The position numbers and the translations under genes were made by a program. 38,055 nt of DNA from a virus. The notes beneath the pieces were generated by a model, which was given only the letters and a program-made list of their open reading frames with translations, was not told the DNA's origin and ran no database searches. Positions 360 through 29,060 of the stretch are shown here, piece after piece (position 1 is the stretch's first letter; each line of letters opens with the position of its first letter). The DNA lies in the IMG/VR virus record IMGVR_UViG_3300046809_000267, positions 1 to 38,055 of that record; one strand, given 5' to 3'.

Positions 360-1196
360 TCAGAACGTGTAGTTTAGCGAAAGCATCCACTCGCCCTTAA
401 TACCCGCCGGCGTGTCCTTATCCTTGCTGTATCCGACCGGCGCATTGAGGTAGTTGAGCCGCGCCGAGAACGGCCCCTTGCTCACGGACGCGCCAACCAG
501 CAAGCCCACCTGAACATGCGGCTGGTGGCTGAGCGTCTCTTGCGTGCCAGTAGGACCGAAGCGCGCCGAATCGTTCATTGCAGTAGCTACGCTTGTCCAC
601 GTGGTTCGATAGAACGCCGGCCCGGCTTCGACGCCGAGCTGCCAGCCGCTGCCTAGATCCCAATACGGCTCGACGGTCAGTGCGATAGCTTGAATGCCGC
701 CAGTGCTGTCGAAGCGCCTGAAGTCGCCGCAATTGCCGTCGACGCAACTCTGCGTGGCAAGGTTGTAGCCGCCGCGTTGACCGACTGATGAGAAGTCCGC
801 CTCGTCCTGCGGATTCACGCTCGACCATTTCACCTTGCCGAAGTTGTAGTAGTCGAGGTGCGCGCGCACGCCGGGCACAAAGGAGCGCGGCGCTGCGGGT
901 ATCGCATTGAACACCAGTCCGACGCGACCGCCGTAACTGCCGTTCGGCGTGTCGTGCGAGAAGCCTTTGCTATAGAACATACCATCGCCGAGCTTAACGG
1001 CAGATGTTGCGCCCAGACCGGCTTCGATTTGAAACCACGACTGTTCAGCATGCGCGCTTTGGCATATAGCAGCGCATACCAGAACCGCGAGCACAACGGA
1101 TACTTTGATAGTATCCGTGGCGCACAAATTTTTTTTAGCCGCATCACCCCTGCGGCGGCCAATAGATGTCGGAATGACGTGGGCTTTGTTTTTCAT
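360..1196 (-). CDS. Outer-membrane beta-barrel protein (probable moron)
   Basis: 278 residues. A hydrophobic signal segment (about residues 31-49, ending QSAHA before EQSWF) is followed by alternating, glycine- and aromatic-rich strands and a terminal ...SLNYTF; a C-terminal Phe is typical of outer-membrane barrels folded by BAM. The start at 1196 has a good ribosome site (CGGAG, 8 bases upstream) and lies downstream of an operator-promoter at 1238-1266. The signal peptide is unusually long (about 50 residues) because codons 27-33 are made from a second copy of the phage operator. The gene points against its neighbours, as a moron would. The exact function is unknown; it might alter the surface of the host. 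Confidence 0.65.
   Translation of the reverse strand: MKNKAHVIPTSIGRRRGDAAKKNLCATDTIKVSVVLAVLVCAAICQSAHAEQSWFQIEAGLGATSAVKLGDGMFYSKGFSHDTPNGSYGGRVGLVFNAIPAAPRSFVPGVRAHLDYYNFGKVKWSSVNPQDEADFSSVGQRGGYNLATQSCVDGNCGDFRRFDSTGGIQAIALTVEPYWDLGSGWQLGVEAGPAFYRTTWTSVATAMNDSARFGPTGTQETLSHQPHVQVGLLVGASVSKGPFSARLNYLNAPVGYSKDKDTPAGIKGEWMLSLNYTF
1097..1125 (-). promoter_or_regulatory. Perfect operator inside the outer-membrane gene
   Basis: GGATAC-N7-GTATCC (1098-1116) is a perfect palindrome and extends one further base pair on each side. On the minus strand it sits between GTGCGC (1125-1120) and TATCCG (1102-1097) with 17 bases between them, preceded by an eight-base A tract. That is the same geometry as the other operator-promoters, but here it lies within the coding sequence, upstream of the signal-peptide core. 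Confidence 0.6.
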
Positions 1197-1237
1197 GGCG
1201 TTTGCTCCGTTCTGCGTTCGTTGTTATGACGATATGA

Positions 1238-1266
1238 AGGATACTAATACGGTATCGCAAACGCAA
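1238..1266 (-). promoter_or_regulatory. Operator-promoter of the outer-membrane gene
   Basis: Minus-strand TTGCGT (1266-1261), 17 bases, then TATCCT (1243-1238), with an AAAAAA tract just upstream of the -35. The operator GGATAC-N7-GTATCG (1239-1257) overlaps the spacer and -10, so a bound repressor would block polymerase. It lies about 40 bases upstream of the start codon at 1196. Confidence 0.65.
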
Positions 1267-1290
1267 GAAGTTTTTTGTATCGCAACCCCA

Positions 1291-1311
1291 AGCCGCTTAG
1301 TGCGGCTTTTT
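1291..1311 (+). terminator. Intrinsic terminator before the lysis genes
   Basis: AGCCGC-TTAGT-GCGGCT followed by TTTT. It lies only 13 bases upstream of the ATG at 1325, so it would stop plus-strand transcripts arriving from the left unless they were antiterminated. Confidence 0.7.
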
Positions 1312-1324
1312 CTTTGGAAGCCCG

Positions 1325-1588
1325 ATGGATTCACACATTGTCAACGAGTGGACGCTATCCGCCGCAACGGCTCTTGCTGGTCTGCTTTTCTGGGCGTATC
1401 GAAGCCTCAACAAGCGATGCAGCGAAAACGAAAGGGCGAATGCCGCTCTCGCGCTGCACGTCGCCGAGGAATACGTGTCGGTGAAGCGCTTCGAGGGCTA
1501 TACGACGCAGTTCAATGAGGCGGTGAAAACCATCTTCGAAAAGCTCGACGTGGTTCGAGACAAGATCGATCACAAGGCCGACAAATGA
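1325..1588 (+). CDS. Small membrane protein with coiled-coil tail, lysis region
   Basis: 87 residues: one N-terminal hydrophobic segment (about residues 10-26), then a charged helical region rich in Glu, Lys and Ala that could form a coiled coil. The ribosome site GGAAG precedes the ATG. Its stop overlaps the endolysin start (ATGA at 1585-1588), so the two are translationally coupled. Position and topology fit a holin-like or antiholin protein, or a lysis accessory protein; the sequence alone does not decide. Confidence 0.65.
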   Translation: MDSHIVNEWTLSAATALAGLLFWAYRSLNKRCSENERANAALALHVAEEYVSVKRFEGYTTQFNEAVKTIFEKLDVVRDKIDHKADK

Positions 1589-2235
1589 CCATCACGCCAG
1601 CACTGCTTCAGGTTGCTTGTGGTGCCAGCGCTGCCAATGCCGCCAAGTACGCGGCCCCCTTGCAAGCCGCATGCGATCGCTACTCGGTCAACACGCCGTT
1701 GCGCATCGCTGCGTTTCTCTCGCAAGTGGGCCACGAGAGCGCAGGTCTGTCGGCATCGCAGGAATCGTTCAACTACGGCGTACCGGGATTGATGGCGACG
1801 TGGCCGCGCAAGATGCCGTTCGCGCTGGCTAACACGCTCGGCCGTCAGCCGAACGAGCCGTTCGTGCCGGTCGCGCGCCAGCAGCGCATCGCGTCGATCG
1901 TGTACGCGAACCAGTATGGCAACGGCGACAGCATGACTGGCGACGGCTGGCGATACCGCGGCTCAGGTCTGATCCAGCTAACTTTTCACGACAACTTTGC
2001 CGCGTTCGGCCATGACATTTCGCTCGATCTGGTGACGGCGCCTGACAAGCTGCGCGCCGATCCCGCGCTGTGCGCGCTGTCGGCCGGCTGGTTTTGGGTC
2101 GAGCACGGCTGCAACACGCTCGCCGACGCTGGTGCGCTCGATTCGATCACGCGCCGGATCAATGGCCCCGCGATGAAAGGGAAGGGCGAGCGCGACGCCC
2201 TCTATGCGGCTGCCAAGCACGCGCTCGGCATCTGA
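1585..2235 (+). CDS. GH19 chitinase-like endolysin
   Basis: 216 residues, a single glycoside hydrolase family 19 domain that cleaves the glycan backbone of peptidoglycan during lysis. The hallmark VGHESAGL places the catalytic acid at Glu51 with a second Glu at 60; the family segment GDGWRYRGSGLIQLT follows at about residues 118-132. There is no signal peptide, so release would depend on a holin. It overlaps the upstream membrane-protein gene by 4 bases and is followed by a terminator. Confidence 0.93.
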   Translation: MTITPALLQVACGASAANAAKYAAPLQAACDRYSVNTPLRIAAFLSQVGHESAGLSASQESFNYGVPGLMATWPRKMPFALANTLGRQPNEPFVPVARQQRIASIVYANQYGNGDSMTGDGWRYRGSGLIQLTFHDNFAAFGHDISLDLVTAPDKLRADPALCALSAGWFWVEHGCNTLADAGALDSITRRINGPAMKGKGERDALYAAAKHALGI

Positions 2236-2278
2236 TCACCGGCGGCGCAGCCTCTTGCCGCCGGAATTGCTGTTCCAC

Positions 2279-2302
2279 AAGCCGCCTCCGGGCGGTTTTT
2301 TT
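2279..2302 (+). terminator. Intrinsic terminator after endolysin
   Basis: CCGCC-TCCG-GGCGG followed by seven T. It stands 10 bases upstream of the next ATG (2313), so the HNH gene has no room for its own promoter between the two. Confidence 0.8.
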
Positions 2303-2312
2303 ACGCCCGAAC

Positions 2313-4418: not shown

Positions 4419-5048
4419 TTACTTCCTACCCCATCCCAAAGCAGCCGGTCTACCGTATCCGGCATACTTGACCTTCAGCCAATCCCTCGATCGACCCCGC
4501 TGATACGTTGAATCCAACCGCTTGGCGATCATCCCTTCTAGGCCCAAGTCTACGACGTGCTCAAAGACTAGCTTTCCTTCGTCCTCAATGCCGCTCGCAT
4601 AAATCAGCGTGCTCGTATTGTCGAACGATCTGCGAAGCTGCAGCTTGCGCTCGGTGAGCGGCAGTCCGCGAATGTCGGCGCCGTCGATGGACAGCGCGTC
4701 GAACACGTACAGCCGAGCCGGGTCAGACTTTGCCGCGGCGCGGACATTCTTTGGCGTTTTCGTGACCGCGCGTTGCCGGAGTCTGTCAAAGTCCGATCTC
4801 CCTGTGTCGTCGTCGACCGTCAGTTCCGCGTCCCAGACGAAATCACCCGGCACGCTTTCGACCGCTCGCACGACCTCGGGAAACGATCCGTTGAACACGT
4901 TGCCATTTCGGCTCCATAGCTTCACGTCCTCGCCGGCTTTGACGATCAGGCACCTGAACCCATCGTACTTCAGCTCGAAGAGCCAGTCAGGATCGGAGAA
5001 CGGTCGACCGTGGAGCGTGGCGAGCATCAAATCAGACGCATCAATCAC
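4419..5048 (-). CDS. ATP-dependent DNA ligase, LigD ligase-domain type
   Basis: About 209 residues from a GTG at 5048. FELKYDGFRCLI carries the KxDG motif whose Lys takes the AMP; LWSRNGN, a central VWDAELTV, LYVFDALSIDG, GLEGMIAKRLDS and WLKVKY follow in the order of adenylation-domain motifs I-V. It resembles the isolated ligase domain of bacterial LigD; the OB fold, the nuclease and the primase parts are absent or very short. The GTG overlaps the end of the preceding gene by 8 bases; an ATG at 5096 would add 16 residues, and the true start is uncertain. A role in sealing phage DNA or repairing breaks is inferred. Confidence 0.85.
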   Translation of the reverse strand: MIDASDLMLATLHGRPFSDPDWLFELKYDGFRCLIVKAGEDVKLWSRNGNVFNGSFPEVVRAVESVPGDFVWDAELTVDDDTGRSDFDRLRQRAVTKTPKNVRAAAKSDPARLYVFDALSIDGADIRGLPLTERKLQLRRSFDNTSTLIYASGIEDEGKLVFEHVVDLGLEGMIAKRLDSTYQRGRSRDWLKVKYAGYGRPAALGWGRK

Positions 5049-5229
5049 GGTAGCGAGACGTCCAAGCCCACGCCAGCGCAAGCTTCGCCCACGCATCGTC
5101 TTTCGGGCAGCCCGTCACGTCGCAGAAATGGTCGAAGTCCTCGGCGAGAGTATGTCCGTGCTCATTCCGTTTCTCGGGATCGGGCAGCACGACTTCTAGA
5201 ATCGCTTCAGGGTTGCGGTACTCGAACAT
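5041..5229 (-). CDS. Hypothetical acidic protein
   Basis: 62 residues. The start at 5229 is set by a near-perfect ribosome site (AAGGAGGTG). Acidic and rich in aromatic residues, with a single CDVTGC segment. No family recognised. It lies 4 bases after the Cys-rich gene and overlaps the ligase start, so it is expressed with them. Confidence 0.6.
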   Translation of the reverse strand: MFEYRNPEAILEVVLPDPEKRNEHGHTLAEDFDHFCDVTGCPKDDAWAKLALAWAWTSRYRD

Positions 5230-5233
5230 GGCG

Positions 5234-5446
5234 TCACCTCCTTGTTCGCTCACCAGCATGATTCGGACCTTCGTCGTCGGCGCCGATTGCACGAACCCAA
5301 TGCACGCAACCGCGCTTAGGCTGGGCCTGAACGTATGGCTTACCTTCGTGCATGCAGAGGATGACTGAGCCACCCGCGCGCCACTCCGCGAAGTGCTCAC
5401 AGCCAAGGCAGTGGCGATCGGTCTCCGGCGCATTGAACAGACCCAT
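5234..5446 (-). CDS. Small Cys-rich protein, first gene of the ligase operon
   Basis: 70 residues with HCLGCEHF ... LCMHEGK ... GCVHW, a spacing of Cys and His that suggests one zinc site. Function unknown. It is the first gene after the minus-strand promoter at 5478-5505. Confidence 0.6.
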   Translation of the reverse strand: MGLFNAPETDRHCLGCEHFAEWRAGGSVILCMHEGKPYVQAQPKRGCVHWVRAIGADDEGPNHAGERTRR

Positions 5447-5477: not shown

Positions 5478-5505
5478 ACGATACCACAGCGGGATTGCAA
5501 AGCAA
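5478..5505 (-). promoter_or_regulatory. Promoter of the ligase operon with operator half-site
   Basis: Minus-strand TTGCTT (5505-5500), 16 bases, TATCGT (5483-5478). The left half CGATAC (5479-5484) of the phage operator is kept, but the right half is not (GGATTG), so repression here may be weak or absent. The start codon at 5446 is about 30 bases downstream. Confidence 0.5.
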
Positions 5506-5816: not shown

Positions 5817-5834
5817 TGGTGCCCAGGAGAGGAC
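5817..5834. other. attP: attP core: tRNA 3'-end sequence
   Basis: TGGTGCCCAGGAGAGGAC is the reverse complement of a tRNA 3' end: CCA, discriminator A, acceptor strand CCTGGGC and T-stem strand CCTCT. Acceptor GCCCAGG/CCTGGGC fits bacterial tRNA-Leu. The rest of a tRNA is absent, since the sequence turns to non-tRNA after GGAC, so this is the phage copy and not attL or attR. The integrase starts 144 bases to the right. The host tRNA identity is inferred. Confidence 0.72.
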
Positions 5835-5884
5835 GCTAATCCGGTATCCGTTCGCCCCGAAACCCTGATGTAACCGTGATTTAC

Positions 5885-5913
5885 GGATACTGTCATGGTA
5901 TCATTTGGTCAAT
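5885..5913 (-). promoter_or_regulatory. Operator-promoter between attP and integrase
   Basis: Minus-strand TTGACC (5913-5908), 17 bases, TATCCG (5890-5885), the best -35 in the window. The operator GGATAC-N7-GTATCA (5886-5904) overlaps it. It would transcribe leftward through the attP core, or a repressor bound here could influence integrase expression or intasome assembly. A second, degenerate site (GGACGC-N7-GTATCC, 5831-5849) touches the edge of the core. Confidence 0.55.
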
Positions 5914-5977: not shown

Positions 5978-6988
5978 GTGGCGACATACCAGAAGCGCGG
6001 CGAGAGCTGGCGTGCGATAGTTCGCAAAGCTGGACACAAACCGATCAGCGCATCATTCAACACGAAACCGGAGGCGGTGACGTGGGCGACGGCGACAGAG
6101 GCAAAACTGAACGAAGGCGGTCAGGTGGTCGACGACAACACTGTCACGCTACCAACCGTTGCTAGGCTGCTGACCCGCTATGCGCTCGAGGTTAGCCCGA
6201 CAAAGCGGGGTGAGCGGTGGGAGGTGATGCGCCTTGAAATGCTGGCGCGCAACTTTCCAGTGTTCCAGAAGCCGCTTTCCCGGTTCTCGCCGCAAGACGT
6301 CGCCGACTGGCGCGATGATCGCTTGCGCGTCGTTTCTGCATCATCGGTCAATCGGGAGTTGAACCTGATCTCGGCTGTTTTCACGACTTCGATCAAAGAA
6401 TGGCGCATGCCGCTCAAGGAAAACCCAGTGCATCTGATCCGCCGGCCCAAGAGCGCGCGTCCGCGTAAGCGCCGGGTCGACAATACCGAAGTGCAGATCA
6501 TCTGCAACGCGCTCGGTTGGGATATGAAAGCCACGCCGGAAATCTCAAAGCATCTGATCGCATGGTCATTCGCATTTGCAGTTGAAACGGCCATGCGTCG
6601 CGGCGAGATCCTGGACATCCGGCATCGCGACGTGAACATCGCAGAGCGCTATATCCATCTGCCACAGACAAAGAATGACGACGCGCGCAATGTGCCGCTG
6701 TCGTCGCGCGCGGTTGATCTGCTGTCGTTGCTCGCAAAGGGAAAGCCCGACGATCATCTTGTCCCGGTGAATGCTGGATCGTTCGACACGCTCTTCCGCG
6801 AGGCGAAAAAAAAGGTCGGCTTGACCGACCTGCATTTCCACGACTCACGCCGCGAAGCCGCGACGCGCATGTCTAAGTTGCTGCCGAACGTTTTAGAACT
6901 GTCGGCGGTGACAGGACACAAGACCCTGAAGATGCTGCAAATCTACTATGAGCCGAAGGCGACGGACATCGCCGCCAAGCTCGGCTAA
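5978..6988 (+). CDS. int: Tyrosine recombinase integrase
   Basis: 336 residues, starting at a GTG preceded by AAAGGAACCG. An N-terminal SAM-like, DNA-binding region (about 55-150) precedes the catalytic domain, where the expected residues are all visible: Arg207 in AMRRGE, Lys232 in QTKND, His288-x-x-Arg291 in HDSRRE, His314 in GHKTL and the nucleophile Tyr323 in IYYEP. It catalyses recombination between attP just upstream and a tRNA attB. Its last 4 bases overlap the convergent excisionase-like gene. Confidence 0.95.
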   Translation: MATYQKRGESWRAIVRKAGHKPISASFNTKPEAVTWATATEAKLNEGGQVVDDNTVTLPTVARLLTRYALEVSPTKRGERWEVMRLEMLARNFPVFQKPLSRFSPQDVADWRDDRLRVVSASSVNRELNLISAVFTTSIKEWRMPLKENPVHLIRRPKSARPRKRRVDNTEVQIICNALGWDMKATPEISKHLIAWSFAFAVETAMRRGEILDIRHRDVNIAERYIHLPQTKNDDARNVPLSSRAVDLLSLLAKGKPDDHLVPVNAGSFDTLFREAKKKVGLTDLHFHDSRREAATRMSKLLPNVLELSAVTGHKTLKMLQIYYEPKATDIAAKLG

Positions 6989-11446: not shown

Positions 11447-11722
11447 TTAGGCGGCGAAGCGAACCATGAAGCGATTCGACATCGGCGATTGGTAAGCCTC
11501 GCCACCCGTCCGCTGCGCCGCTGCTTCAGCTTGCTTGCGATTCGCAAACACGCGCGGCATATTGCCTTTGAACAGGTGGAGAACGCCGAAGCGGTTAGCC
11601 TTGATGTTCTCTTCCTTTGCCAGCTTGACCTGCTCGCGCTTGTACGCGTCGATCTGGGCGTCAATGTCGCCGCGCTTTGCCAGGGGCAGATTCAGAATTC
11701 CGTGGTCAAGTGCCTGGCTCAT
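11447..11722 (-). CDS. First gene of the 11.7-7.0 kb early operon
   Basis: 91 residues. A charged N-terminal helix (about residues 15-45, DAQIDAYKREQVKLAKEENI) precedes a beta-like C-terminal part. It is the first gene after the operator-promoter at 11755-11783, about 30 bases away. No family recognised. Confidence 0.6.
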   Translation of the reverse strand: MSQALDHGILNLPLAKRGDIDAQIDAYKREQVKLAKEENIKANRFGVLHLFKGNMPRVFANRKQAEAAAQRTGGEAYQSPMSNRFMVRFAA

Positions 11723-11754: not shown

Positions 11755-11783
11755 ACGATACCGCAACAGTATCCGTTACGCAA
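11755..11783 (-). promoter_or_regulatory. Operator-promoter of the 11.7-7.0 kb operon
   Basis: Minus-strand TTGCGT (11783-11778), 17 bases, TATCGT (11760-11755). The operator CGATAC-N7-GTATCC (11756-11774) fills the spacer and covers the -10. It sits right behind the stop of the previous operon, whose last gene ends at 11787. Confidence 0.65.
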
Positions 11784-16320: not shown

Positions 16321-16815
16321 TTAGACGCGAATTTCGAGCCGATCCTTGACGATCAGGCGTGCGCCGGCGATCTCTTGGCCTGCTTCGAGCGCTTTCTTGA
16401 TCTCGGTCTTGTTCGGCTCAGTCTTGACGCGCATGTATTGCTGCGGCACCGCGTCTGCATCGACAACTTCGACTGACTTGTCGCGGCCTTCGCGCAGGGC
16501 AATCGTCACCAGCGGGTTTTCGATGCGCAGGCGTTGCGCAGACTTCATGTTCTGTTGCAGGTAGCCCTCCAGGCGCTCGGCGCGAGCTTCCCACTTGCGC
16601 GCGCGCTCGACTATCTCTGCGGCTGCGTCGCGCATCATCTTTGCGTTAGCGGCAATCTCGCGCGAGATTAGGGCGCAGCCGACAGCCTTCTTGTCGAAGT
16701 CCTCGGCGCAGCCTTCAAGGGTGTCCTCGATGGTCGTATCGTCGAATCCTGCATCCATCAGGTCGTTTCGGATTGCCAGCAGCTCGCCGGTCAACTGGTA
16801 CAGTGGCGCGTTCAT
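16321..16815 (-). CDS. Siphovirus Gp157-family protein
   Basis: 164 residues from the ATG at 16815 (AAAGGAACCG upstream). It has DTIEDTLEG-like acidic helices, a long central helix (about residues 55-100) and the tail KTEPNKTEIKKALEAGQEIAGARLIVKDRLEIR, the signature of Gp157. The family accompanies single-strand annealing and recombination genes and has been linked to phage resistance; biochemistry is unclear. First gene of the 16.8-11.8 kb operon. Confidence 0.82.
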   Translation of the reverse strand: MNAPLYQLTGELLAIRNDLMDAGFDDTTIEDTLEGCAEDFDKKAVGCALISREIAANAKMMRDAAAEIVERARKWEARAERLEGYLQQNMKSAQRLRIENPLVTIALREGRDKSVEVVDADAVPQQYMRVKTEPNKTEIKKALEAGQEIAGARLIVKDRLEIRV

Positions 16816-16861: not shown

Positions 16862-16881
16862 AAGATACCATGACGGTATCC
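16862..16881 (-). promoter_or_regulatory. Operator-promoter of the 16.8-11.8 kb operon
   Basis: The operator AGATAC-N7-GTATCC (16863-16881) lies 48 bases upstream of the Gp157 start. On the minus strand TATCTT (16867-16862) can serve as the -10; the matching -35 is poor (AACCGC), but an AAAAAAATTT tract lies upstream as at the other sites. Confidence 0.5.
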
Positions 16882-17183: not shown

Positions 17184-17840
17184 TCAGAAGGGAATTTCGT
17201 CTGGCATCGTTTCAAAGCCGCCGAAGTTCTCGTCTTTGATATGGCCGCCGCTATTCGATGCCGTGGACTTCTTCAGCGGGCGATCCTTCAGCGCTGCGAC
17301 CAGCTGCGGCAGCTTCAGCGGCGTCGTCTTGCGGTCCAGAATCTCGGAGGCCGTCAGTTCCGTGTCGGCTTGGAACACTGCGTTGAGGCGCACGCTCCAG
17401 CCGGTTTCGCCAGTCGGTCGGCCGCCCTGGTCCTTCTTCTCGTATTCTTCCATTGCGAGCAGAATGCCAACACGCTTGTTCATCAGGCCCGGAAACTGGC
17501 TGAGGGTCTTGTTGACGTTGCCGCCTGCGTCCTTATCCCACACGACCGACTGAACCTGAGCGGGCTTGATGTCCTTGATACCAAGGCACGTCATGAGCGC
17601 CATCAGCGTTCCGTAGTCGCCCAGCTTCTCGCCGTCAGACTTGATGGTGTAGATGGAGAAGTTAGCCTTCTGGCCTTCGTCGGTTTCGAACGTGAAGGCA
17701 ATGCCGCGCGTGCCGCTTCGAGCGGTGATGTCCTCTGCGCGCGTGAACTTGCCGACGTACTTGCCTTTCTCGTCGATAAAGCTGGTGCGTTGCTCGGCCT
17801 TGCGTGCGGCTTGTGCGGATTCAGTATTGAGTGCGTACAT
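17184..17840 (-). CDS. Single-stranded DNA-binding protein with acidic tail
   Basis: 218 residues. The beta-rich N-terminal part (about 15-170) is compatible with an OB fold. After a glycine/lysine linker the protein ends ETMPDEIPF, close to the DDDIPF tip by which bacterial SSB recruits partners. It lies directly downstream of the Sak4-like ATPase, a pairing common in phage recombination modules. Assignment rests on tail and context more than on the core. Confidence 0.7.
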   Translation of the reverse strand: MYALNTESAQAARKAEQRTSFIDEKGKYVGKFTRAEDITARSGTRGIAFTFETDEGQKANFSIYTIKSDGEKLGDYGTLMALMTCLGIKDIKPAQVQSVVWDKDAGGNVNKTLSQFPGLMNKRVGILLAMEEYEKKDQGGRPTGETGWSVRLNAVFQADTELTASEILDRKTTPLKLPQLVAALKDRPLKKSTASNSGGHIKDENFGGFETMPDEIPF

Positions 17841-17916: not shown

Positions 17917-18564
17917 TTAAGCGGGTTGCGCGGTGTAGTAGTCGACGATCTGTCGGTCAACCTCTGCGAGGTCGTTTTCGATCTCGTCGCCGTCAAACAT
18001 CCCCATTGGCGACTTGCAGACGGTCTGTCCGTTGTTCTGCGTCATGAACATGTACTGGCGGTCGATCACGACCGTTTGCAACACGATCGTCACCATGCCC
18101 TCAATGCAGATGCGCTCGTCCAGCAGCCTGCCGATCGTGCGCGGCTTAGTTATTCCCGCGTCGTTCGTGTCGGTGTGACTCATCACGTACACGCGCACGT
18201 CGTCTGGCAGGGCGGCGGCGGCCATGAGGATGTCCCACACGTCGCGCGCGATGTCGGTGAACTTGTCGAAGCCGCGTTCGTTGCTTCGGCGCATGAACGA
18301 ATTGCTCATGCAGTATTGGAAATCATCCAGGATGATTACCTTGCGCTTGGTGCGCTGCATGTAGCTGACGATATGGCTCGCCGAGTCGCAGACGATCATG
18401 TTGCCGCCCGGGTTCTCTTTCGAGAGATACGACCAGCCCTTAGCGCGGAACGGCAAAGGCTTGCGCAAAGCCTGAATCAAAAGGGTCTGCGTCGGGTCCA
18501 AATTGCGCATCGAAGTGCTCTTTCCTGTCCCGCTGACACCCAAAACAAAAGTCACCGTTGCCAT
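17917..18564 (-). CDS. Sak4-like RecA-fold ATPase
   Basis: 215 residues. Walker A GVSGTGKS (9-16), Walker B VIILDDF (76-82), then a SHTDTND segment resembling the sensor region of phage AAA/RecA-like ATPases. Size and the SSB gene downstream fit Sak4-type single-strand annealing ATPases; a general phage nucleotide-binding protein is the alternative. A good ribosome site (AGGAG) fixes the start. The first 125 bases also encode another frame. Confidence 0.75.
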   Translation of the reverse strand: MATVTFVLGVSGTGKSTSMRNLDPTQTLLIQALRKPLPFRAKGWSYLSKENPGGNMIVCDSASHIVSYMQRTKRKVIILDDFQYCMSNSFMRRSNERGFDKFTDIARDVWDILMAAAALPDDVRVYVMSHTDTNDAGITKPRTIGRLLDERICIEGMVTIVLQTVVIDRQYMFMTQNNGQTVCKSPMGMFDGDEIENDLAEVDRQIVDYYTAQPA

Positions 18565-18664: not shown

Positions 18665-18901
18665 CTAGCTCACCTTGCAATGCAAGAAATGGCGGGCGAT
18701 GTAGTGGGGCACATGGCCGCTGCCGATCGCTACGCGGGGCTGAACACCGCGACGAGCGAGATCGGCTTTTGCTGCACGCTGGCGCTGTTCCGTGCGCGCT
18801 TGCAGTGCTGCAAATTCGGCGTCGAGAATCTCGGCTTGCGAGAGGCGCACATTCGTCTGGACGTGGCGCAGATCATTCAGTGACTTGGCGATCAGTTGCA
18901 T
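18665..18901 (-). CDS. Small helical protein
   Basis: 78 residues from the ATG at 18901 with GGAG upstream. Helical and charged: SLNDLRHVQTNVRLSQAEILDAEFAALQARTEQRQRAAKADLARRG, probably a coiled coil; the C-terminus is His-rich (HVPHYIARHFLHC). Start overlaps the preceding stop by 10 bases. Function unknown. Confidence 0.55.
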   Translation of the reverse strand: MQLIAKSLNDLRHVQTNVRLSQAEILDAEFAALQARTEQRQRAAKADLARRGVQPRVAIGSGHVPHYIARHFLHCKVS

Positions 18902-19119
18902 ACCGGGCTCCGGGAGAAAGTAAGTACGATCATCACGGCGAGAGCCATTGCGCACGCGCCAGCAGAGAAAGCGAGAAACAGGTCGTTGACCTTGCATACG
19001 CTAGCTACTATGGTATCCGTCGCGTGCAAATTTTTTTCCGCGACGTCGGCCTGACGCGGGCGGAAAATCGCTGCGGAGCGTAATAATAACGCGGACTTCA
19101 GTTGCGATGCAGTGTTCAT
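18892..19119 (-). CDS. Small single-pass membrane protein
   Basis: 75 residues with one hydrophobic segment (about 46-66, DLFLAFSAGACAMALAVMIVLTF). Residues about 28-37 read EKNLHATDTI and are encoded by a degenerate copy of the phage operator cassette. The outer-membrane gene at 360-1196 has KKNLCATDTI at the same distance from its start. It follows the operator-promoter at 19173-19201. Confidence 0.5.
   Translation of the reverse strand: MNTASQLKSALLLRSAAIFRPRQADVAEKNLHATDTIVASVCKVNDLFLAFSAGACAMALAVMIVLTFSRSPVCN
19000..19018 (-). promoter_or_regulatory. Degenerate operator inside the small membrane-protein gene
   Basis: Right half GTATCC (19013-19018) is intact and flanked by the usual CG and an AAATTTTTTT tract (plus-strand view), but the left half is GCTAGC. 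It has the sequence context of the operator cassette without a convincing -10, and may be a decayed copy. Confidence 0.4.
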
Positions 19120-19172: not shown

Positions 19173-19201
19173 AGGATACTAAAACGGTATCCGTTGCGCA
19201 A
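19173..19201 (-). promoter_or_regulatory. Operator-promoter of the 19.1-16.9 kb operon
   Basis: Minus-strand TTGCGC (19201-19196), 17 bases, TATCCT (19178-19173), with an A6 tract upstream. The operator GGATAC-N7-GTATCC (19174-19192) is a perfect palindrome. This is the clearest example of the repeated arrangement. Confidence 0.72.
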
Positions 19202-21175: not shown

Positions 21176-21471
21176 TGCTCGCCCCTTGCTTTAGCCAGAG
21201 CAGCGCGGGCACGCACGAAGCCGCCTTTACCGCCGATCCACGGCGTGTTGATGATTTCTTCGAGTGCTGCGTACAGGTCAGGAGCCGCGGCTATCAGCCT
21301 TGCATTTGCTTCGCGCTCTGTATCGCCTCCGCAACAAAATATGTCCGCTATTTCTTCGCCGCCATACACCTCCCCACGCGGGCGAATGAATGCGAGACTT
21401 GCTCGGGTATCTTCGTCGGGATGGTCAAAGCAGACTTCCCACGGACCTTTCGTTATTTGAATATCGCTCAT
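21172..21471 (-). CDS. Ead-type early protein, tandem paralogue
   Basis: 99 residues from the ATG sharing a base with the previous stop. ITKGPWEVCFDHPDEDT ... EREANARLIAAAPDLYAALEEI matches its downstream neighbour in layout. Same family, unknown function. Confidence 0.7.
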   Translation of the reverse strand: MSDIQITKGPWEVCFDHPDEDTRASLAFIRPRGEVYGGEEIADIFCCGGDTEREANARLIAAAPDLYAALEEIINTPWIGGKGGFVRARAALAKARGEQ

Positions 21472-21770
21472 CACTCACCTCCAGCCAGGCGGCGCTTAAC
21501 GATGACTTCCTTCGCATCGGTCAGCAGCGTGTGAATCGTATGCAGGTCGTCTTTGTTGCCACGCGCCAGAGCGCTCATGAACGACTCGCGTTGCGGGCCG
21601 GTCAGCTCGACCAGCAGTTCCATCAGGTCGTCGAACGTGACCTCGCTCTCGACCTGCTCGCGGCGATCTTCTGCGGCCAGTGCTGCGTTGTCGGCTGCTT
21701 CGAGATCCCGGTCGAACAGCCAATTGCCGTATGCTTGCGTGCGGGAAACTAACTGCGGTACGTGTGGCAT
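21471..21770 (-). CDS. First gene of the 21.8-19.2 kb operon
   Basis: 99 residues with ribosome site AAGGACGG. Acidic helices in the centre (EDRREQVESEVTFDDLMELLVELTGPQRESFMSALARGN) and a basic end. No recognised family. It follows the operator-promoter at 21826-21854 by about 50 bases. Confidence 0.6.
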   Translation of the reverse strand: MPHVPQLVSRTQAYGNWLFDRDLEAADNAALAAEDRREQVESEVTFDDLMELLVELTGPQRESFMSALARGNKDDLHTIHTLLTDAKEVIVKRRLAGGE

Positions 21771-21825: not shown

Positions 21826-21854
21826 ACGATACCAAAGTAGTATCCGTAGCGCAA
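21826..21854 (-). promoter_or_regulatory. Operator-promoter of the 21.8-19.2 kb operon
   Basis: Minus-strand TTGCGC (21854-21849), 17 bases, TATCGT (21831-21826). The operator CGATAC-N7-GTATCC (21827-21845) covers the spacer. It lies 8 bases beyond the stop of the previous operon. No A tract is present here. Confidence 0.66.
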
Positions 21855-23513: not shown

Positions 23514-23725
23514 GCTGAATCTCCCAACAACTCGTATCCGCCGTGCTTTCCGTTAAAGCGTTCGCGTGACGCCCATGTTTTGCGGCCGAGCAATTTGCCG
23601 GTCATCGGATCGAAGTTTGAAATGCAGACCTTCTGCCGTTCGCCATCCAGTGCGACGACAACGACCGCCCGAGAAAAGCGGCTGTCGCGCTCTTTCCACT
23701 TCTGCCCGACCTTCACGTCAGTCAT
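23510..23725 (-). CDS. Small SH3-like early protein
   Basis: 71 residues. VKVGQKWKERDSRFSRAVVVVALDGERQKVCISN shows a beta-barrel-like run of strands seen in small phage DUF families. The ATG overlaps the preceding stop by 8 bases, as at 9040-9047. Function unknown. Confidence 0.6.
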   Translation of the reverse strand: MTDVKVGQKWKERDSRFSRAVVVVALDGERQKVCISNFDPMTGKLLGRKTWASRERFNGKHGGYELLGDSA

Positions 23726-24404
23726 GGTCGGCTCCGCTTGCTGGTTGCGAAGCGGTCAGGATCGAGCGAAGGTCCGTTGAGATAACAACGCTGCCCATCG
23801 ACTCCGCTAGATTCGCGGCTGCCCGCACTGCTGCCAATTGATCGAGGCTCAGCGTCAGCGCTACCTGTGTCTGTGCTGGCTGCAGGGCAGAAAAAACGAT
23901 GCGTTTGTGGGCATCCGCTCGCGCATAGTCAAGCGGAGTTACATCGCGCCACACGTGGCCGTTCTCGTTTCCCGTCTGATAGATCGGCTCCGCTGCCACC
24001 TTTTCGGCGGGGAGAGCGGCGCGTTTCGCATAGTCCATGCGGGCGAATATTGCGAAGTCGCCAAGGCGCTCAAGGTTGCGTTCGCGTTGAAGGCTCGTTT
24101 CGAACCCTGCCAGCTTGCCCCATTCGATGACTTGCTCGCGCGTTACAGCGTCTTTCCTCATCGCCCCATTTGGTGGGCCAGATTCCGAACCGGCGTCGGC
24201 AATAACTTCGCAATCCGCGATGCGATTCCTCAATTCCGCCATCGCCAGGCGAATTTCTGAGGCCGCCTGCATTTGATCGCATGCGTTTTCCAGCCATCGA
24301 GCCGTGCATTCCATCGAAAAAAGCACGCCGTCGAACGCGCGTTTTTCACGACTACTGTATGTTTGTACAGTACTCCGACCTAATGATGCCTCGTTAGTGT
24401 TCAT
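23718..24404 (-). CDS. Ea22-like early protein, paralogue of the 9.0-10.2 kb gene
   Basis: 228 residues. First gene after the 24.5 kb operator-promoter, with ribosome site AAAAGGAACTG. The AALPAEKVAAEP linker, the QTQVALTLSLDQL segment and the ASGADHD end recur in the gene at 9040-10167; two DNA blocks of 26 and 18 bases are identical. The middle is different, so it looks like a mosaic of exchangeable blocks. Confidence 0.62.
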   Translation of the reverse strand: MNTNEASLGRSTVQTYSSREKRAFDGVLFSMECTARWLENACDQMQAASEIRLAMAELRNRIADCEVIADAGSESGPPNGAMRKDAVTREQVIEWGKLAGFETSLQRERNLERLGDFAIFARMDYAKRAALPAEKVAAEPIYQTGNENGHVWRDVTPLDYARADAHKRIVFSALQPAQTQVALTLSLDQLAAVRAAANLAESMGSVVISTDLRSILTASQPASGADHD

Positions 24405-24476: not shown

Positions 24477-24504
24477 AGTATAAACGGATACCACCACGGT
24501 ATCC
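24477..24504 (-). promoter_or_regulatory. Operator-promoter of the 24.4-21.9 kb operon
   Basis: A perfect operator GGATAC-N7-GTATCC (24486-24504). The minus-strand -10 is probably TATACT (24482-24477) just beyond it, with TGGATA 17 bases upstream inside the operator. A further half-site CGATAC (24467-24472) lies 19 bases from the main left half, so two dimers might bind side by side. The start codon at 24404 is about 70 bases away. Confidence 0.62.
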
Positions 24505-24525: not shown

Positions 24526-25905
24526 TCAGTCCATTCCACGGCTGCGGCCTCGTGGGCGGTCGGGTTCGGATCGCTGCCCGAAGCCTTGGCCGTGGGCCAG
24601 ATCCTCGAAAAGCGTTCGCTCGCCGTGGAAAACCAGTCCGGTGATGCCCGTTTCGCCCTGGCGCTGCTTCGTGCAAATGACCTCGCAAATCCCCTTGTCT
24701 GGCGAATCGGGGTTGTACACCTCGTCGCGGTACAGGAACAGGATCGTGTCGGCGTCGGCTTCGATGTCGCCGGAATCCTTCAGGTCAGACGAGAGAGGGC
24801 GCTTGTTCGGGCGTTCCTCGCACTTGCGCGAGAGCTGCGAGAGCAGAATGACCGGGATGTCCAGTTCCTTCGCCAGGTTCTTCAGACCCTTCGTCAGTGC
24901 ACCGATTTGCAGGTCGCGGCGTTCTTCGCTGCCGGTTGCCATCAAGCCGAGATAGTCAACGACGAGCAGCGAAAGACCGTGCTTGCGCTTGACCGCGCGC
25001 GCCTTGCTGCGCACCTCGAGCAGCGTCAGATTCGGCTGGTCATCAAGGTACAGGTGCAGGTCTTTGATGGCTCCGGCCGTCTTGGTGATGTGCGACCAAT
25101 CGGGTTGTGTCAGGTTGGCAGGGTCGCGCAACTGCGCCATCGTCAGCCCGCTGATGGAGGAAACCAGTCGTTGTTGAAGCTGCACATTTTTCATTTCCAT
25201 CGACAGGAACAGGACCGGCATATCGCGCGCGACGTTCTTTGCGATGGTCAGCGAGAACGCGGTCTTTCCCATTGACGGACGCGCCGCAACGATAACCAGA
25301 TCGCCGCCATAGAAGCCACCGCCGAGCTTGCGGTCGAGGTCAGTCAGGCCCGTAGGAACGGGTTTGATCAGGCCGTCAATCTGCTGATCCATGTAGTTCA
25401 GGTAATCGACGAGCGACTGGCCGGCGTGAACTGGCTCCGACTTGACGATCGCTTCGCCGAGCTTTTCAAGCTTGGCTGATGCCTGGTCGATCAGGACGGC
25501 CGCGCTGTCAGGCGTTGCGCCGACAGAATCCTGAATCTCATGCGACAGCGCCAGCAGGCCGCGCTTCTGCGCGCGGTCGCGCACGATCTCAGCGTAACGC
25601 GAAATGTTCGCCGCGCTAGGCGTGTTCTGCGATAACGCATTCAGGTACGCAAGGCCGCCGGCATCGTTCGCGCGCCCCTTTGCTTGCAGGCGCTCGAACA
25701 CGGTCATCATGTCCGCGCCAACGCTTGCAGAGATCAGGTCGACGATCTCCGAGAAAATCAGCCGGTGATCAGCGCGGAAAAAGTGTTCGGCTCGCAGATC
25801 GCCGAGTCGGTCGATAGCGTCGTTGTCGATCAGCAGGGCGCCAATGACGCTTTGCTCAGACTCCACGCTTTGCGGAATTGCCCGCTGCATATCGTTCGCC
25901 GTCAT
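24526..25905 (-). CDS. DnaB-type replicative helicase
   Basis: 459 residues. The N-terminal domain (about 10-120) begins PQSVESEQSVIGALLID as in DnaB. The C-terminal RecA-like motor carries Walker A ARPSMGKT (208-215), Walker B LLVVDYLG (Asp317) and the later LSQLSRKCEERPNKRPLSSDLKDSG. It would unwind the phage replication fork, loaded by the product of the gene directly upstream, with which it overlaps by 4 bases. Confidence 0.95.
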   Translation of the reverse strand: MTANDMQRAIPQSVESEQSVIGALLIDNDAIDRLGDLRAEHFFRADHRLIFSEIVDLISASVGADMMTVFERLQAKGRANDAGGLAYLNALSQNTPSAANISRYAEIVRDRAQKRGLLALSHEIQDSVGATPDSAAVLIDQASAKLEKLGEAIVKSEPVHAGQSLVDYLNYMDQQIDGLIKPVPTGLTDLDRKLGGGFYGGDLVIVAARPSMGKTAFSLTIAKNVARDMPVLFLSMEMKNVQLQQRLVSSISGLTMAQLRDPANLTQPDWSHITKTAGAIKDLHLYLDDQPNLTLLEVRSKARAVKRKHGLSLLVVDYLGLMATGSEERRDLQIGALTKGLKNLAKELDIPVILLSQLSRKCEERPNKRPLSSDLKDSGDIEADADTILFLYRDEVYNPDSPDKGICEVICTKQRQGETGITGLVFHGERTLFEDLAHGQGFGQRSEPDRPRGRSRGMD

Positions 25906-26663
25906 GCTCTCTCCTCGTGTTCGCGTTTAACCTGTCTGCCGCGGGTTGTTAAGGCGCATTGCCCGTCGTCAGCGATGAACCACAACTTGAACCAGTTTTC
26001 GCGGACGGCATTGCGGAAGTGCGCGCGCCAGTCCTTCTGTTTTTTAGATTCGTCTGCAAACTTGCGCTTGAACTCGAGCCACGCATATCGGATGAAGTCG
26101 TCAGGCAGGCTTTGCTTGTGCGCGTAGTCGAAGATCGGGTCATCTTCAGCGATGGCGCGCTCGCCGTTTTCTTTGCAAGCTTTTAGCCAAGAGGCCAGAG
26201 AGAGAGAGGCGCGCGAAGCGCGGCGCTTCTCTGTTGTAGTCTCTGTATTCTCTGTACAGTGATGCGGTGGATTTTTCCGGTTCTGAACCGGTGCGATTTT
26301 CCGTTCTGATGCGGTGGATTTTTCCGCTTCGATGCGGACGCCGTGAGCGGCCAAAACCTCGTAATTGATCGCGTAGTAGTTCGTCTTGTCCCACGGGTTG
26401 TCGGACAGTTTTTCGATGTCTACCAAGCCATCGCCGCGCAGCTTTGCAATGATCTTTCGGATGGTCTCCGGCTTCCAGAATGGGAACTGCTTCGCCCATT
26501 CTTCATAGGTGTTGTAGACCCACTGACGATCATCGTGGGTGAATTTGCTGTGCGACAGCCAGTAGTGCATCTGTTGCAGGACGATTGCTTCCTGCAGGCC
26601 GATCGCACAGGCTAAAGTCGGGGAAACAACGAGCGGCGGCTCGTCAAATAACAGCGTGGCCAT
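25902..26663 (-). CDS. Replication initiator (lambda O/DnaD-like)
   Basis: 253 residues. The N-terminal domain (about 10-112) has VVSPTLACAIGLQEAIVLQQMHYWL and a winged helix (FPFWKPETIRKIIAKLRGDGLVDIEK) that should bind the origin. A low-complexity linker (about 110-150) encoded by repeats follows, then a helical C-terminal domain ending in a basic tail that would contact the helicase. Order and position before the DnaB-type gene match lambda O and P logic. Confidence 0.78.
   Translation of the reverse strand: MATLLFDEPPLVVSPTLACAIGLQEAIVLQQMHYWLSHSKFTHDDRQWVYNTYEEWAKQFPFWKPETIRKIIAKLRGDGLVDIEKLSDNPWDKTNYYAINYEVLAAHGVRIEAEKSTASERKIAPVQNRKNPPHHCTENTETTTEKRRASRASLSLASWLKACKENGERAIAEDDPIFDYAHKQSLPDDFIRYAWLEFKRKFADESKKQKDWRAHFRNAVRENWFKLWFIADDGQCALTTRGRQVKREHEERA
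26260..26340. repeat. Iterons, candidate replication origin
   Basis: Three tandem units of 23-24 bp start at 26264, 26288 and 26311; a fourth begins at 26334 and breaks off. Units 1 and 3 share a 20-bp identical block (26260-26279 and 26307-26326; core GCGGTGGATTTTTCCG). Unit 2 is a variant (CCGGTGCGATTTTCCG). They lie in the linker of the initiator gene, as the lambda iterons lie in gene O. Next to them (26228-26257) are three TCTCTGT repeats. Confidence 0.65.
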
Positions 26664-26666
26664 TCC

Positions 26667-26816
26667 TTACTTTCCCCGGATAGTCCGTTTGAGTGATTCG
26701 CAAAGCTTGTGTACTTGCGCCTGCTTTGCGGCCTTGGTCTTGAGGTGCGCGATATTTCTGGCCATAGCCATCTGAAGATCGGCAATGGCCCGCGCGGGTA
26801 CGCGGGCGTCGCTCAT
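26667..26816 (-). CDS. 49-residue basic protein
   Basis: The ATG at 26816 overlaps the preceding stop (ATGA), and the stop lies 3 bases before the initiator start. The product is helical and basic (LQMAMARNIAHLKTKAAKQA ... ESLKRTIRGK). Size and coupling support a real gene; function unknown. Confidence 0.6.
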   Translation of the reverse strand: MSDARVPARAIADLQMAMARNIAHLKTKAAKQAQVHKLCESLKRTIRGK

Positions 26817-27133
26817 TCGGTTTCCTGTTCGAAGTGTTCGAGCGGAACATCAGGCAGATTGGGGATCGGCTCGATCACGGCCGGCCCGCGCGCCTTGCCT
26901 ACGAGCTTCGGCATTTCGTGGCGCAAGCCGATCATGTCGATTACGGTCAGGTGCGGCTTGTTCGGTCCAACTAACTGCGCGCTCACTCGAGCGAATTCGA
27001 GCGCGCGTTTTTTGCCCACCACCTTGTGACCGTTGCGGATGTTGCTCCAGTAGATCGCGCCGATTCCGATCACGTCGAGCAACTGGTTGACGACCTTCGC
27101 CCCGTATGCATCGTGAAATTCTTGTGCGTTCAA
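26813..27133 (-). CDS. Cro-like regulator, first early gene
   Basis: 106 residues from a TTG at 27133, chosen for its ribosome site (AAGGAG, 7 bases upstream). Residues about 3-45 (AQEFHDAYGAKVVNQLLDVIGIGAIYWSNIRNGHKVVGKKRALEF) form a helix-turn-helix-like unit. It stands first in the leftward early operon and divergent from the repressor gene, the position of cro. It may compete for the GGATAC operators; that is inference. Confidence 0.62.
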   Translation of the reverse strand: MNAQEFHDAYGAKVVNQLLDVIGIGAIYWSNIRNGHKVVGKKRALEFARVSAQLVGPNKPHLTVIDMIGLRHEMPKLVGKARGPAVIEPIPNLPDVPLEHFEQETE

Positions 27134-27168: not shown

Positions 27169-27198
27169 AGTATAGCATCGGATACCGTGACGGTTAGC
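27169..27198 (-). promoter_or_regulatory. Early leftward promoter with operator
   Basis: Minus strand has an extended -10, TGC-TATACT (27177-27169). Immediately upstream lies the operator GGATAC-N7-GTTAGC (27180-27198), whose left half is perfect and right half degenerate. It drives the cro-like gene 40 bases downstream. The imperfect site may give lower repressor affinity at the switch than at the other operons. Confidence 0.55.
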
Positions 27199-27383: not shown

Positions 27384-27821
27384 ATGGCTATCGAAACGAT
27401 CGACGCAGTGCGCGCACGAAACTTCCACCTGCTTTTCGAGCAGTTCAAGGAGGGGGTGAGAAGGGATGACCCGACCGCGCCGGATCGGGGAATGCTGAGG
27501 CGCTTTGCCGCTCATCTGGAAATGAACCCTGTCTACCTGTCGAACCTGAACACAGGTTCCAAGACGATCGGGTTGCGGACGGCGCGTGAGATCGAGGCCC
27601 GGCTGAAGCTGCCAGAAGGTTGGATGGACACCGACCACACCAACAACGAAGCGGAAATGAGCGATGACGACCTGGCGTTCCGCGATTCGGTGATGGCGAT
27701 GTACCGGCAGGCCCCAGAAGCATCGCGCGCGGCCGTTTTGCGGGTGCTCCAGGCGCTCGTTCTGGGTAAACCCATAGAGGACGTACTTTCTACCGACAAA
27801 TCGCGCAAGAAAGTGAATTAG
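27384..27821 (+). CDS. Probable lysogeny repressor (XRE-like helix-turn-helix)
   Basis: 145 residues from the ATG at 27384. GMLRRFAAHLEMNPVYLSNLNTGSKTIGLRTAREIEARLKLPEGWMD (about 35-81) is an XRE-type helix-turn-helix. The C-terminal part is short and helical; there is no S24/LexA-like self-cleavage domain, so induction would need another route. It is divergent from the cro-like gene and is the best candidate for the protein that reads the GGATAC-N7-GTATCC sites. A start further upstream would lack a ribosome site. Confidence 0.7.
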   Translation: MAIETIDAVRARNFHLLFEQFKEGVRRDDPTAPDRGMLRRFAAHLEMNPVYLSNLNTGSKTIGLRTAREIEARLKLPEGWMDTDHTNNEAEMSDDDLAFRDSVMAMYRQAPEASRAAVLRVLQALVLGKPIEDVLSTDKSRKKVN

Positions 27822-27885
27822 ACTCGCGCAAACATTTGCGGATTGTTGCAAACACTGAAAATGTAAAATATTGTATCGAAACTTG

Positions 27886-27913
27886 TTGCGCGACCGGGAA
27901 CGGTTCGGATACT
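27886..27913 (+). promoter_or_regulatory. Promoter with operator half-site
   Basis: TTGCGC (27886-27891), 16 bases, GATACT (27908-27913). The -10 coincides with an operator half-site GGATAC (27907-27912). It would transcribe the small gene at 27978. Confidence 0.5.
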
Positions 27914-27977
27914 CTTACATCACCGCGACGCCGTAGCGGGTAAAAAATACCGTGTTTGCAATTCAGAGGGGCTCCAA

Positions 27978-28172
27978 ATGACGAGTTTTGGCACTGCTGG
28001 CAGTACAGAGAACAAAAATGCTGCCGCTGGTGTACTGGCAGAGGGCTTATGCAGCGAAGACGGCGAATACCAGGTCGCCGCCGCTGCAGCTGCCATCCCC
28101 GCGCACATGCGTCGGGAGGTTCTGGCTCACTTGCGCGAGCTTATTTGCGCCGATACAACGCACACCGTTTAG
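27978..28172 (+). CDS. Small hypothetical protein downstream of the repressor
   Basis: 64 residues; the ribosome site AGAGGGG stands 6 bases before the ATG. A Gly/Ser/Ala-rich first half is followed by an Ala-rich helix (AAAAAIPAHMRREVLAHLRELICAD). No recognised family. It has its own promoter 65 bases upstream, so it may be expressed separately from the repressor. Confidence 0.55.
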   Translation: MTSFGTAGSTENKNAAAGVLAEGLCSEDGEYQVAAAAAAIPAHMRREVLAHLRELICADTTHTV

Positions 28173-28187
28173 GTATGCAAATAGCGC

Positions 28188-28216
28188 TTGCGATACTGTG
28201 AAGGTTTTGATACGAT
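28188..28216 (+). promoter_or_regulatory. Promoter before the hairpin-rich noncoding region
   Basis: TTGCGA (28188-28193), 17 bases, TACGAT (28211-28216), with GATAC half-sites at both hexamers. The next terminator lies about 100 bases downstream with no gene between, suggesting a small RNA. Confidence 0.45.
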
Positions 28217-28222
28217 TTATCT

Positions 28223-28329
28223 AACATGTCGTTTTTGCGTCCAGCTTTGATGATGTGTTCATGTTGGTTCCGTTCGTAGATCCCCAGATCTACTTTCCGC
28301 TCCCTTCCAAGGTCGAGCGGCTTTTTATT
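28223..28329 (+). ncRNA. Candidate small RNA
   Basis: The stretch between the promoter at 28188-28216 and the terminator at 28297-28329 would give an RNA of about 105 bases. It contains a perfect 7-bp hairpin GTAGATC-CCCA-GATCTAC (28276-28293) and no convincing coding frame. Its place after the repressor region invites comparison with phage antisense RNAs, but no family is recognised and expression is not shown. Confidence 0.4.
28297..28329 (+). terminator. Intrinsic terminator
   Basis: CCGCTC (28297-28302) and GAGCGG (28315-28320), with an inner CCTT/AAGG pairing in the loop, followed by CTTTTTATT. Confidence 0.75.
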
Positions 28330-28336
28330 CCTGCAA

Positions 28337-28367
28337 GCCGTCGCATGAGCAATCTGCGGCGGCTTTT
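28337..28367 (+). terminator. Second intrinsic terminator in tandem
   Basis: GCCGTCGC (28337-28344) pairs with GCGGCGGC (28356-28363, one G-U pair), followed by TTTT. It lies 8 bases after the first and backs it up. Confidence 0.65.
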
Positions 28368-28461
28368 GCATTTCTGAGCCGGGCCCTGGCGGTCTGTGGC
28401 ATCGACAAGCGCTTGTGCGATGTTGCGGTGGCGGTTCGATTCCGTTCTCGTCTGGCGCCAA

Positions 28462-28486
28462 ACAAAAAGCCAGCGCAAGGCTGGCT
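28462..28486 (-). terminator. Intrinsic terminator of the small minus-strand genes
   Basis: Read on the minus strand: AGCCAGC-CTTGC-GCTGGCT followed by TTTTG. It faces the two plus-strand terminators across about 95 bases and closes the minus-strand pair 28804-28547. A second hairpin, CTGCGGT-N5-ACCGCAG (28489-28507), lies just upstream of it. Confidence 0.7.
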
Positions 28487-28546
28487 CTCTGCGGTCTATA
28501 ACCGCAGCACAGGGTTCCGCTGACGGCGAGCCATCATGGCAGCCGC

Positions 28547-28639
28547 CTACGCGTTAGGGATCTGCTGTTCTCGCCGGTCGGTTGGTGGACTGTCGACCGG
28601 CTGACGTAATAAGCGGTTGGGCAGGTTGATCGTGTTCAT
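28547..28639 (-). CDS. Possible 30-residue peptide
   Basis: The ATG at 28639 is preceded by AAAAGGAACGG, the ribosome-site sequence shared by many genes of this phage. Product MNTINLPNRLLRQPVD..., hydrophilic. Its middle contains a perfect 8-bp inverted repeat (GCCGGTCG/CGACCGGC). Short, so support rests on the ribosome site and the terminator downstream. Confidence 0.4.
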   Translation of the reverse strand: MNTINLPNRLLRQPVDSPPTDRREQQIPNA

Positions 28640-28675
28640 GGCTTCCGTTCCTTTTGGTTGTGACTTCGTGGTGAT

Positions 28676-28804
28676 TCAGTTGCTGTCGGCGTCGCTATCG
28701 TCTGCGTCGTCGTCCAGCTCAGGCTCGCCATAGCTCTCGTCGCAGTAGCGAGCGGCAACCCGCGCAAGGTCGGATTCGCCTGCGGTGCTGAAAGCTGATT
28801 TCAT
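28676..28804 (-). CDS. 42-residue acidic protein
   Basis: The ATG at 28804 has GGAG 6 bases upstream. Begins MKSAFSTAGESDLARVAARY; the last third is nearly all Asp, Glu and Ser (residues about 29-42). Strongly acidic small phage proteins can mimic DNA, but no such role can be shown here. Confidence 0.5.
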   Translation of the reverse strand: MKSAFSTAGESDLARVAARYCDESYGEPELDDDADDSDADSN

Positions 28805-28939
28805 GGCGCACTCCTAATGATCCTGAGATACGTTGAAGAAGGCCCGCGGTGCTTCTGGTGCGCGCGACCGTTGAACGGCCTGCGCTGCTGCAATCCGCTC
28901 GACAAGCTGGATTAACTGTCAAGCCAGCATTTGATCGAA

Positions 28940-29060
28940 TGATGCCATAACGGTATCGGACAGTGTGAGAAGTTTTCGTTACAAGTTGTATTCGTGGATA
29001 CTGTTGCGCGCTTTGTGTTCGTTGGCGCACATTGCACGGATACCGGCACGGAATCGATAG
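28940..29060 (+). promoter_or_regulatory. Regulatory region with three operator-like sites before the rightward genes
   Basis: TGATGC-N7-GTATCG (28940-28958), half-site GGATAC (28996-29001) and GGATAC-N7-GAATCG (29038-29056). A plausible plus-strand promoter is TTGCAC (29032-29037), 17 bases, CGATAG (29055-29060), with the last operator filling the spacer. The start at 29079 follows closely. Upstream, a 32-residue frame at 28817-28915 with a C-x2-C pair has no ribosome site and is doubtful. Confidence 0.5.

Follow-up and report, generated by a model that had tools for sequence, protein, structure and literature searches.

A dispersed 19-bp palindrome as the probable common operator of early promoters in a metagenomic temperate phage

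The window analyzed here is a 38,055-base stretch of viral DNA (IMG/VR record IMGVR_UViG_3300046809_000267) that carries many copies of a 19-bp palindrome, largely at the junctions between operons. The phage is considered temperate because it encodes a tyrosine integrase, and the palindrome, GGATACYRTNAYRGTATCC, would be the operator of its own putative lysogeny repressor, encoded at positions 27384–27821. Judged from sequence, it is probable that one repressor shuts approximately eight to ten early transcription units at their own promoters. The principle of dispersed, promoter-linked operators is already known, since P1 and SPbeta provide precedents; what appears to be new to the collections searched is the phage group together with its operator, its pair of regulators, and a candidate small RNA beside the repressor gene.

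Definition and conservation of the palindrome

Allowing up to three mismatches, the pattern GGATAC-N7-GTATCC occurs 21 times in the window, whereas 100 dinucleotide shuffles average 7.7 matches and never exceed 16. The matches with zero or one mismatch are exactly the eight sites that the initial annotation had listed as retaining 11–12 of the 12 arm bases, at 1098, 1239, 5885 (corrected from 5886), 11756, 16863, 19174, 21827, and 24486. The spacer is constant at 7 bases, as also claimed there, and is structured as Y-R-T-N-A-Y-R; the spacer itself is thus palindromic, so that the full operator consensus is a 19-bp palindrome. A scoring matrix built from these eight strong sites gives them 23–26 bits, and leave-one-out scores are 21.4–25.1 bits, with all eight ranking in the top eight of the window. 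Not one site in 100 Markov simulations reached 20 bits, and approximately one per genome reached 11 bits.

The weaker matches proposed initially fared unevenly. Those at 28940 (18.8 bits) and 29038 (15.9 bits) are judged real, and those at 5831 and 27180 (~12.5 bits each) occupy the same positions in relatives, as do further sites at 5479, 28160, and 28191. Position 19000 scores only 3.4 bits; it lies inside the coding open reading frame (ORF) 18892–19119 and contains a good half-site that is invariant in 14 haplotypes. Credible operators number approximately 14–15 per genome, with 14–16 sites, above chance, in the window and in two complete relatives.

Relatives were gathered by the repressor gene and the pattern TTGCG-N3-CGGATAC-N7-GTATC, yielding ~70 related IMG/VR contig stretches; this promoter-operator pattern is present in ~50 contig stretches. 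In two relatives, G003 (52.9 kb) and G007 (54.2 kb), the opening 60 bases recur ~127 bases short of the end, and both contigs are probably complete circles. The matrix search proposed in the initial annotation found 16 sites scoring 11 bits or more in each of them, all in the early/regulatory half of G003, and with one chance-like match in a late gene of G007. Matrix matches in coding or late genes of the relatives score 11–16 bits; the extra ones in G003 (11585, 17043), G007 (46151), and G005 (5960) are intragenic, look like chance, and were discarded.

Conservation is concentrated in the operator. When six orthologous sites are compared, variation affects 1 of 60 columns in the core arms and 120 of 420 in the flanks (Fisher p 3e-7); among relatives, hardly any change is seen in the ten core arm bases, and the flanks vary. 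Two repressor clades can be distinguished. In clade A, the immunity-region sites (27180, 28160, 28191, 28940, and 29038) score 7–21 bits, as against 20–27 bits for the main distal sites. Clade B (contigs G011, G012, and G014) has a repressor ~50% identical and a Cro-like protein 34–37% identical, in the same divergent layout. Its operators retain the GATAC core, with a consensus near CGATACCGTGACGGTATCG, and are again found at operon junctions despite different genes, three of them with TTGC exactly 9 bp upstream. The distant regulator L106 (contig G015), which is 34% identical and has a longer S24-like C-terminus, comes with no comparable operator set. The window DNA has no near match among annotated phages; tblastn with the repressor gave no match in 50,697 phage records at E 1e-3, hence no sequence kinship to P1 C1 was found, and one scan of GTDB representatives returned a single weak, partial relative.

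Promoters and operon junctions

Promoter elements overlap the operator at about half of the sites. The trinucleotide TTG stands exactly 9 bases before the operator at five of nine minus-strand sites and at none on the other strand (corrected p ~1e-5), and the predicted promoters are sigma-70-like (TTG-N17-TATC) and aimed at the downstream genes. The initial annotation had placed most sites inside TTGCGY-N17-TATCST, which is somewhat overstated because the exact form is found at four sites only, all on the minus strand: 1239–1257 (TTGCGT-N17-TATCCT, promoter of gene 360–1196), 11756–11774 (TTGCGT-N17-TATCGT, 34 bp upstream of gene 11447–11722), 19174–19192 (12/12 arm bases, TTGCGC-N17-TATCCT, 55 bp upstream of ORF 18892–19119), and 21827–21845 (TTGCGC-N17-TATCGT, 57 bp upstream of gene 21471–21770). 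Looser versions surround the operator at 5885–5903 (minus-strand TTGACC-N17-TATCCG, 75 bp before the integrase gene), the weaker operator at 5479–5497 (minus-strand TTGCTT-N16-TATCGT, 46 bp upstream of ORF 5041–5433; 11.3 bits, and 11–16 bits in relatives), and the operator at 28940–28958 (plus-strand TTGATC-N17-TATCGG, before the rightward genes from 29079 onward).

The claim that the good sites between 11.7 and 24.5 kb mark the junctions of gene blocks is borne out. All five strong sites in that interval lie in gaps between leftward genes, 34–82 bp before the next start codon, in a leftward region (the 7–27 kb block) of which 7.5% is intergenic (p ~2e-6); the remaining intergenic gaps there contain no operator. 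In addition to the three promoter-embedded sites already described, the five comprise 16863–16881, preceded by an A7TTT tract and 48 bp upstream of the Gam/Gp157-like gene, and 24486–24504 (12/12 arm bases), 82 bp upstream of gene 23718–24404, where on the minus strand TTGCGA stands 13 bp before the operator and TATACT/TATAAT follows it closely. A perfect LexA-like box (CTGT-N8-ACAG) at 24355–24370 is kept in 15 of 15 haplotypes, but it was left unused: it falls in the 5′ coding part of 23718–24404, and near matches are no commoner than in shuffles.

Restricting the operators to leftward early operons, as was done initially, proved too narrow, as the integrase/ligase region, the lysis-proximal region, a rightward promoter, and the candidate small RNA are also covered. 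A weaker operator at 5831–5849 (12.5 bits; the stronger GGACACTTATCCGGTATCC in relatives) is found between the integrase and ligase blocks. Near the lysis gene, the operator at 1098–1116 (12/12 arm bases) lies within ORF 360–1196, downstream of the promoter/operator at 1239. On the rightward side, the operator at 29038–29056 stands 23 bp before gene 29079–29228 (plus strand). The asymmetric operator at 27180–27198, one arm of which reads GCTAAC and is kept in close relatives, covers the promoter of the cro-like/replication operon and is followed downstream by TGCTATACT. Two further operators form a pair: 28160–28178, for which relatives have the stronger GCACACCGTGACGGTATGC, lies 31 bp from 28191–28209, which covers a plus-strand promoter, TTGCGA-N17-TACGAT (TTGCGA-N17-TATCAT in clade B).

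The A7TTT tract ends 12 bases before the operator at 1098, 16863, and the half-site 19000, all with a poor −35 at 17 bp. At 1098–1134 and 19000–19036, this A-tract/operator-like DNA module is read in the same frame by the unrelated ORFs 360–1196 and 18892–19119, giving the peptide K-N-L-x-x-T-D-T-[IV]-x-x-S, soon followed by a hydrophobic segment; site 16863 has the same A-tract/operator-like DNA, there outside annotated genes. The flanks of the operators at 1239, 11756, 16863, and 19174 resemble each other more than shuffled controls do, a pattern that copying of promoter cassettes from one operon to another could produce.

Candidate regulators and competing explanations

The likely ligands of the palindrome are two divergently encoded helix-turn-helix (HTH) proteins. 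The CI-like repressor (27384–27821, plus strand, 145 aa) has an N-terminal XRE-type HTH, matches a PHROG transcriptional regulator, and is conserved in operator-carrying relatives. Among solved structures, it is closest to SPC32H Rep (5d50; profile E 3e-6, Foldseek E 5.8e-4) and the PaaR2 CI domain; its C-terminus has helices predicted at low confidence and no Pfam match. The Cro-like (YdaS-like) protein (26813–27133, minus strand, 106 aa, TTG start) is the first gene product of the replication operon, and its best Foldseek match is YdaS of CP-933P, a weak one (E 0.26, prob 0.95). Operator 27180 lies between these two genes, in the layout of a lambda-type switch that is also found in clade B, and the divergent HTH pair is kept in all clades examined. 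The two HTHs align over 35 columns that include the recognition segments (hhalign E 1.2e-6, prob 91), a hint, though no proof, that the two proteins share operators.

Backing for the repressor-operator reading of the initial annotation comes from conservation, the overlap with promoters, the location between genes, and the neighboring CI-like/Cro-like pair. The ~14–15 operators of the prophage would be occupied by the repressor as dimers or, if it resembles SPC32H Rep in this respect, perhaps as tetramers. Because most operators cover the −35/−10 elements of separate promoters, each early block would be closed at its own start, including replication, recombination, the small-gene blocks, ligase, the integrase region, the lysis-proximal gene, the rightward transcript, and the candidate small RNA; a single repressor could thereby probably silence the whole prophage at once. 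The Cro-like protein probably reads the same operators, lowering these promoters later in the lytic cycle. The weakest operators lie in the immunity region, which suggests graded derepression: if score tracks affinity, falling repressor activity would open the immunity-region operators and the small RNA first and the distal operons last. A further elaboration, which we regard as doubtful, is that operator strength, weak and conserved-degenerate at the switch and small RNA and strong distally, fixes the order of release, and that a tetramer might bridge sites into a compact, silent prophage.

Several observations weigh against control of all these units by one repressor. No S24/LexA-type autoprotease domain was found in the 145-aa repressor, and no antirepressor was identified; a search for an Ant homolog, covering some of the small genes, found none. 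The Cro-like assignment is weak, resting on weak structural matches. Canonical −35/−10 spacing is absent at 1098, 16863, and 24486, and operator 1098 is within coding sequence. The −10 elements (TATCST) match poorly and coincide with an operator arm, which means that they were not recognized independently of the operator.

Some of these features would fit sites that act mainly as roadblocks to elongating polymerase at operon boundaries, as in L5: site 1098 and half-site 19000 lie in coding sequence 141–174 bp downstream of a promoter-linked operator, and 16863 lacks a good −35 at 17 bp. The sites are, however, palindromic and mostly intergenic, with the fixed-offset TTG on the strand of the downstream gene only, whereas the 20–30 stoperators of L5 are asymmetric, 13–14 bp long, and mostly not at promoters (PMC6550527). 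The window shares with L5 and Bxb1 many dispersed repressor sites per genome, but its sites are palindromic and mostly promoter-linked or intergenic and do not fit the description of stoperators, which are oriented with transcription; roadblocking as the main function is therefore improbable. Service to the Cro-like/YdaS-like protein or to an early activator, instead of the CI-like protein, seems unlikely but carries some weight: the recognition segment of the Cro-like HTH aligns with that of the repressor, and its gene heads the replication operon. MerR-type activated promoters have a spacer of 19–20 bp; here, −35 and −10 are separated by 17 bp, as is usual for promoters that need no activator, and activation is disfavored because the site covers the −10, so MerR-type activation was rejected on geometry.

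Two explanations outside transcriptional control have very little in their favor. Six-base arms around a 7-base gap could form a hairpin in RNA, either nut/boxB-like or a terminator, but the gap is palindromic at the DNA level, which is superfluous for an RNA loop, the palindrome-extended stem leaves a one-base loop, and transcription is predicted to begin downstream of the site, which has no U tract after it; this reading was likewise rejected on geometry, and we give it scarcely any credence. A role in partition, replication, or integration might be suspected because three sites flank the integrase gene, but the sites are scattered across 28 kb, standing at operon junctions and accompanied by promoter elements, and no partition gene was found among the scanned proteins, making such a role highly improbable. 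Repression of many early promoters by the CI-like protein is thus the preferred reading.

Candidate small RNA, gene content, and known systems

Beside the repressor gene, the 110 bases after the operator pair 28160/28191 fold into three hairpins and a U run in both clades despite strong divergence. The pair may control this conserved candidate small RNA (28222–28335, plus strand), predicted to consist of a 5′ hairpin, a hairpin with a C-rich loop, and a terminator hairpin with the U run. Rfam has no match anywhere in the window. No claim of covariation is based on RNAalifold, which aligned the two clades incorrectly, and the only antisense match in the phage, 16 bases in the integrase mRNA, is not kept in G006 and G007 and was treated as chance. 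A second terminator hairpin follows at 28336–28385, replaced by other hairpins in different relatives.

The gene map was drawn with a small self-made gene caller, and functions were assigned via Pfam and PHROGs. It places endolysin at 1585–2235, ligase at 4419–5027, the tyrosine integrase at 5978–6988 (plus strand), Gam/Gp157-like at 16321–16815, SSB at 17184–17840, Sak4-like at 17917–18456, DnaB at 24526–25905, and a DnaD-like loader at 25902–26663. Two methyltransferases are also encoded, and the terminase, portal, and capsid genes are at the right side.

L5 had been named as a precedent, but P1 C1 and SPbeta MrpR are closer, their operators being promoter-linked or dispersed over lytic units. 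As in those systems, one site is repeated across the early region and stands at promoters of different units at most, not all, of its positions. The P1 C1 repressor has 22 dispersed operators (PMC8546580), and the likeness lies in one lysogeny repressor, many genome-wide operators, and several lytic transcription units. P1 operators are, however, asymmetric 17-mers (ATTGCTCTAATAAATTT) instead of a 19-bp palindrome, and P1 is a plasmid prophage with Coi, Lxc, and c4 RNA, whereas this phage has an integrase and a divergent CI-like/Cro-like HTH pair. SPbeta MrpR acts as one master repressor at ~10 SPBRE repeats in promoter regions of separate transcription units (PMC10516654), a layout shared here with a candidate repressor predicted from sequence; MrpR differs in combining a tyrosine-recombinase fold with a 15-bp motif, in place of an XRE-type HTH and a 19-bp palindrome.

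By profile and fold, the closest solved repressor is that of SPC32H (5d50; PMC9638917, PMC9986798); its DNA-binding form is a tetramer, which an antirepressor dismantles (PMC9638917). Rep is reported to repress via one tetramer, and many operators are not described in the parts of those reports consulted. Its family has a C-terminal p53-like tetramerization domain and Ant; the C-terminus here is predicted as helices at low confidence. The divergent CI-like/Cro-like genes with an operator between them recall lambda, but lambda operators are only at pL and pR, whereas this phage has operators at ~10 further places, and the C-terminal S24/LexA-type autoprotease is a feature of lambda-type repressors that is missing here. 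In the Streptomyces phage phiC31, which belongs to an unrelated host group, conserved inverted repeats dispersed over early promoters are bound by the c repressor. Literature searches surfaced no further dispersed-operator phages.

The system would add a metagenome-only phage group, apparently with Gram-negative hosts, to the few cases of many-promoter silencing (P1, SPbeta, and phiC31). Its conserved, operator-linked candidate small RNA adjoining the repressor is a concrete new lead. With ~50 pattern-carrying contig stretches and two repressor clades that combine the same layout with different genes, the group therefore forms a natural data set for operator-repressor coevolution, for how new early operons gain repression, and for whether operator strength orders induction.

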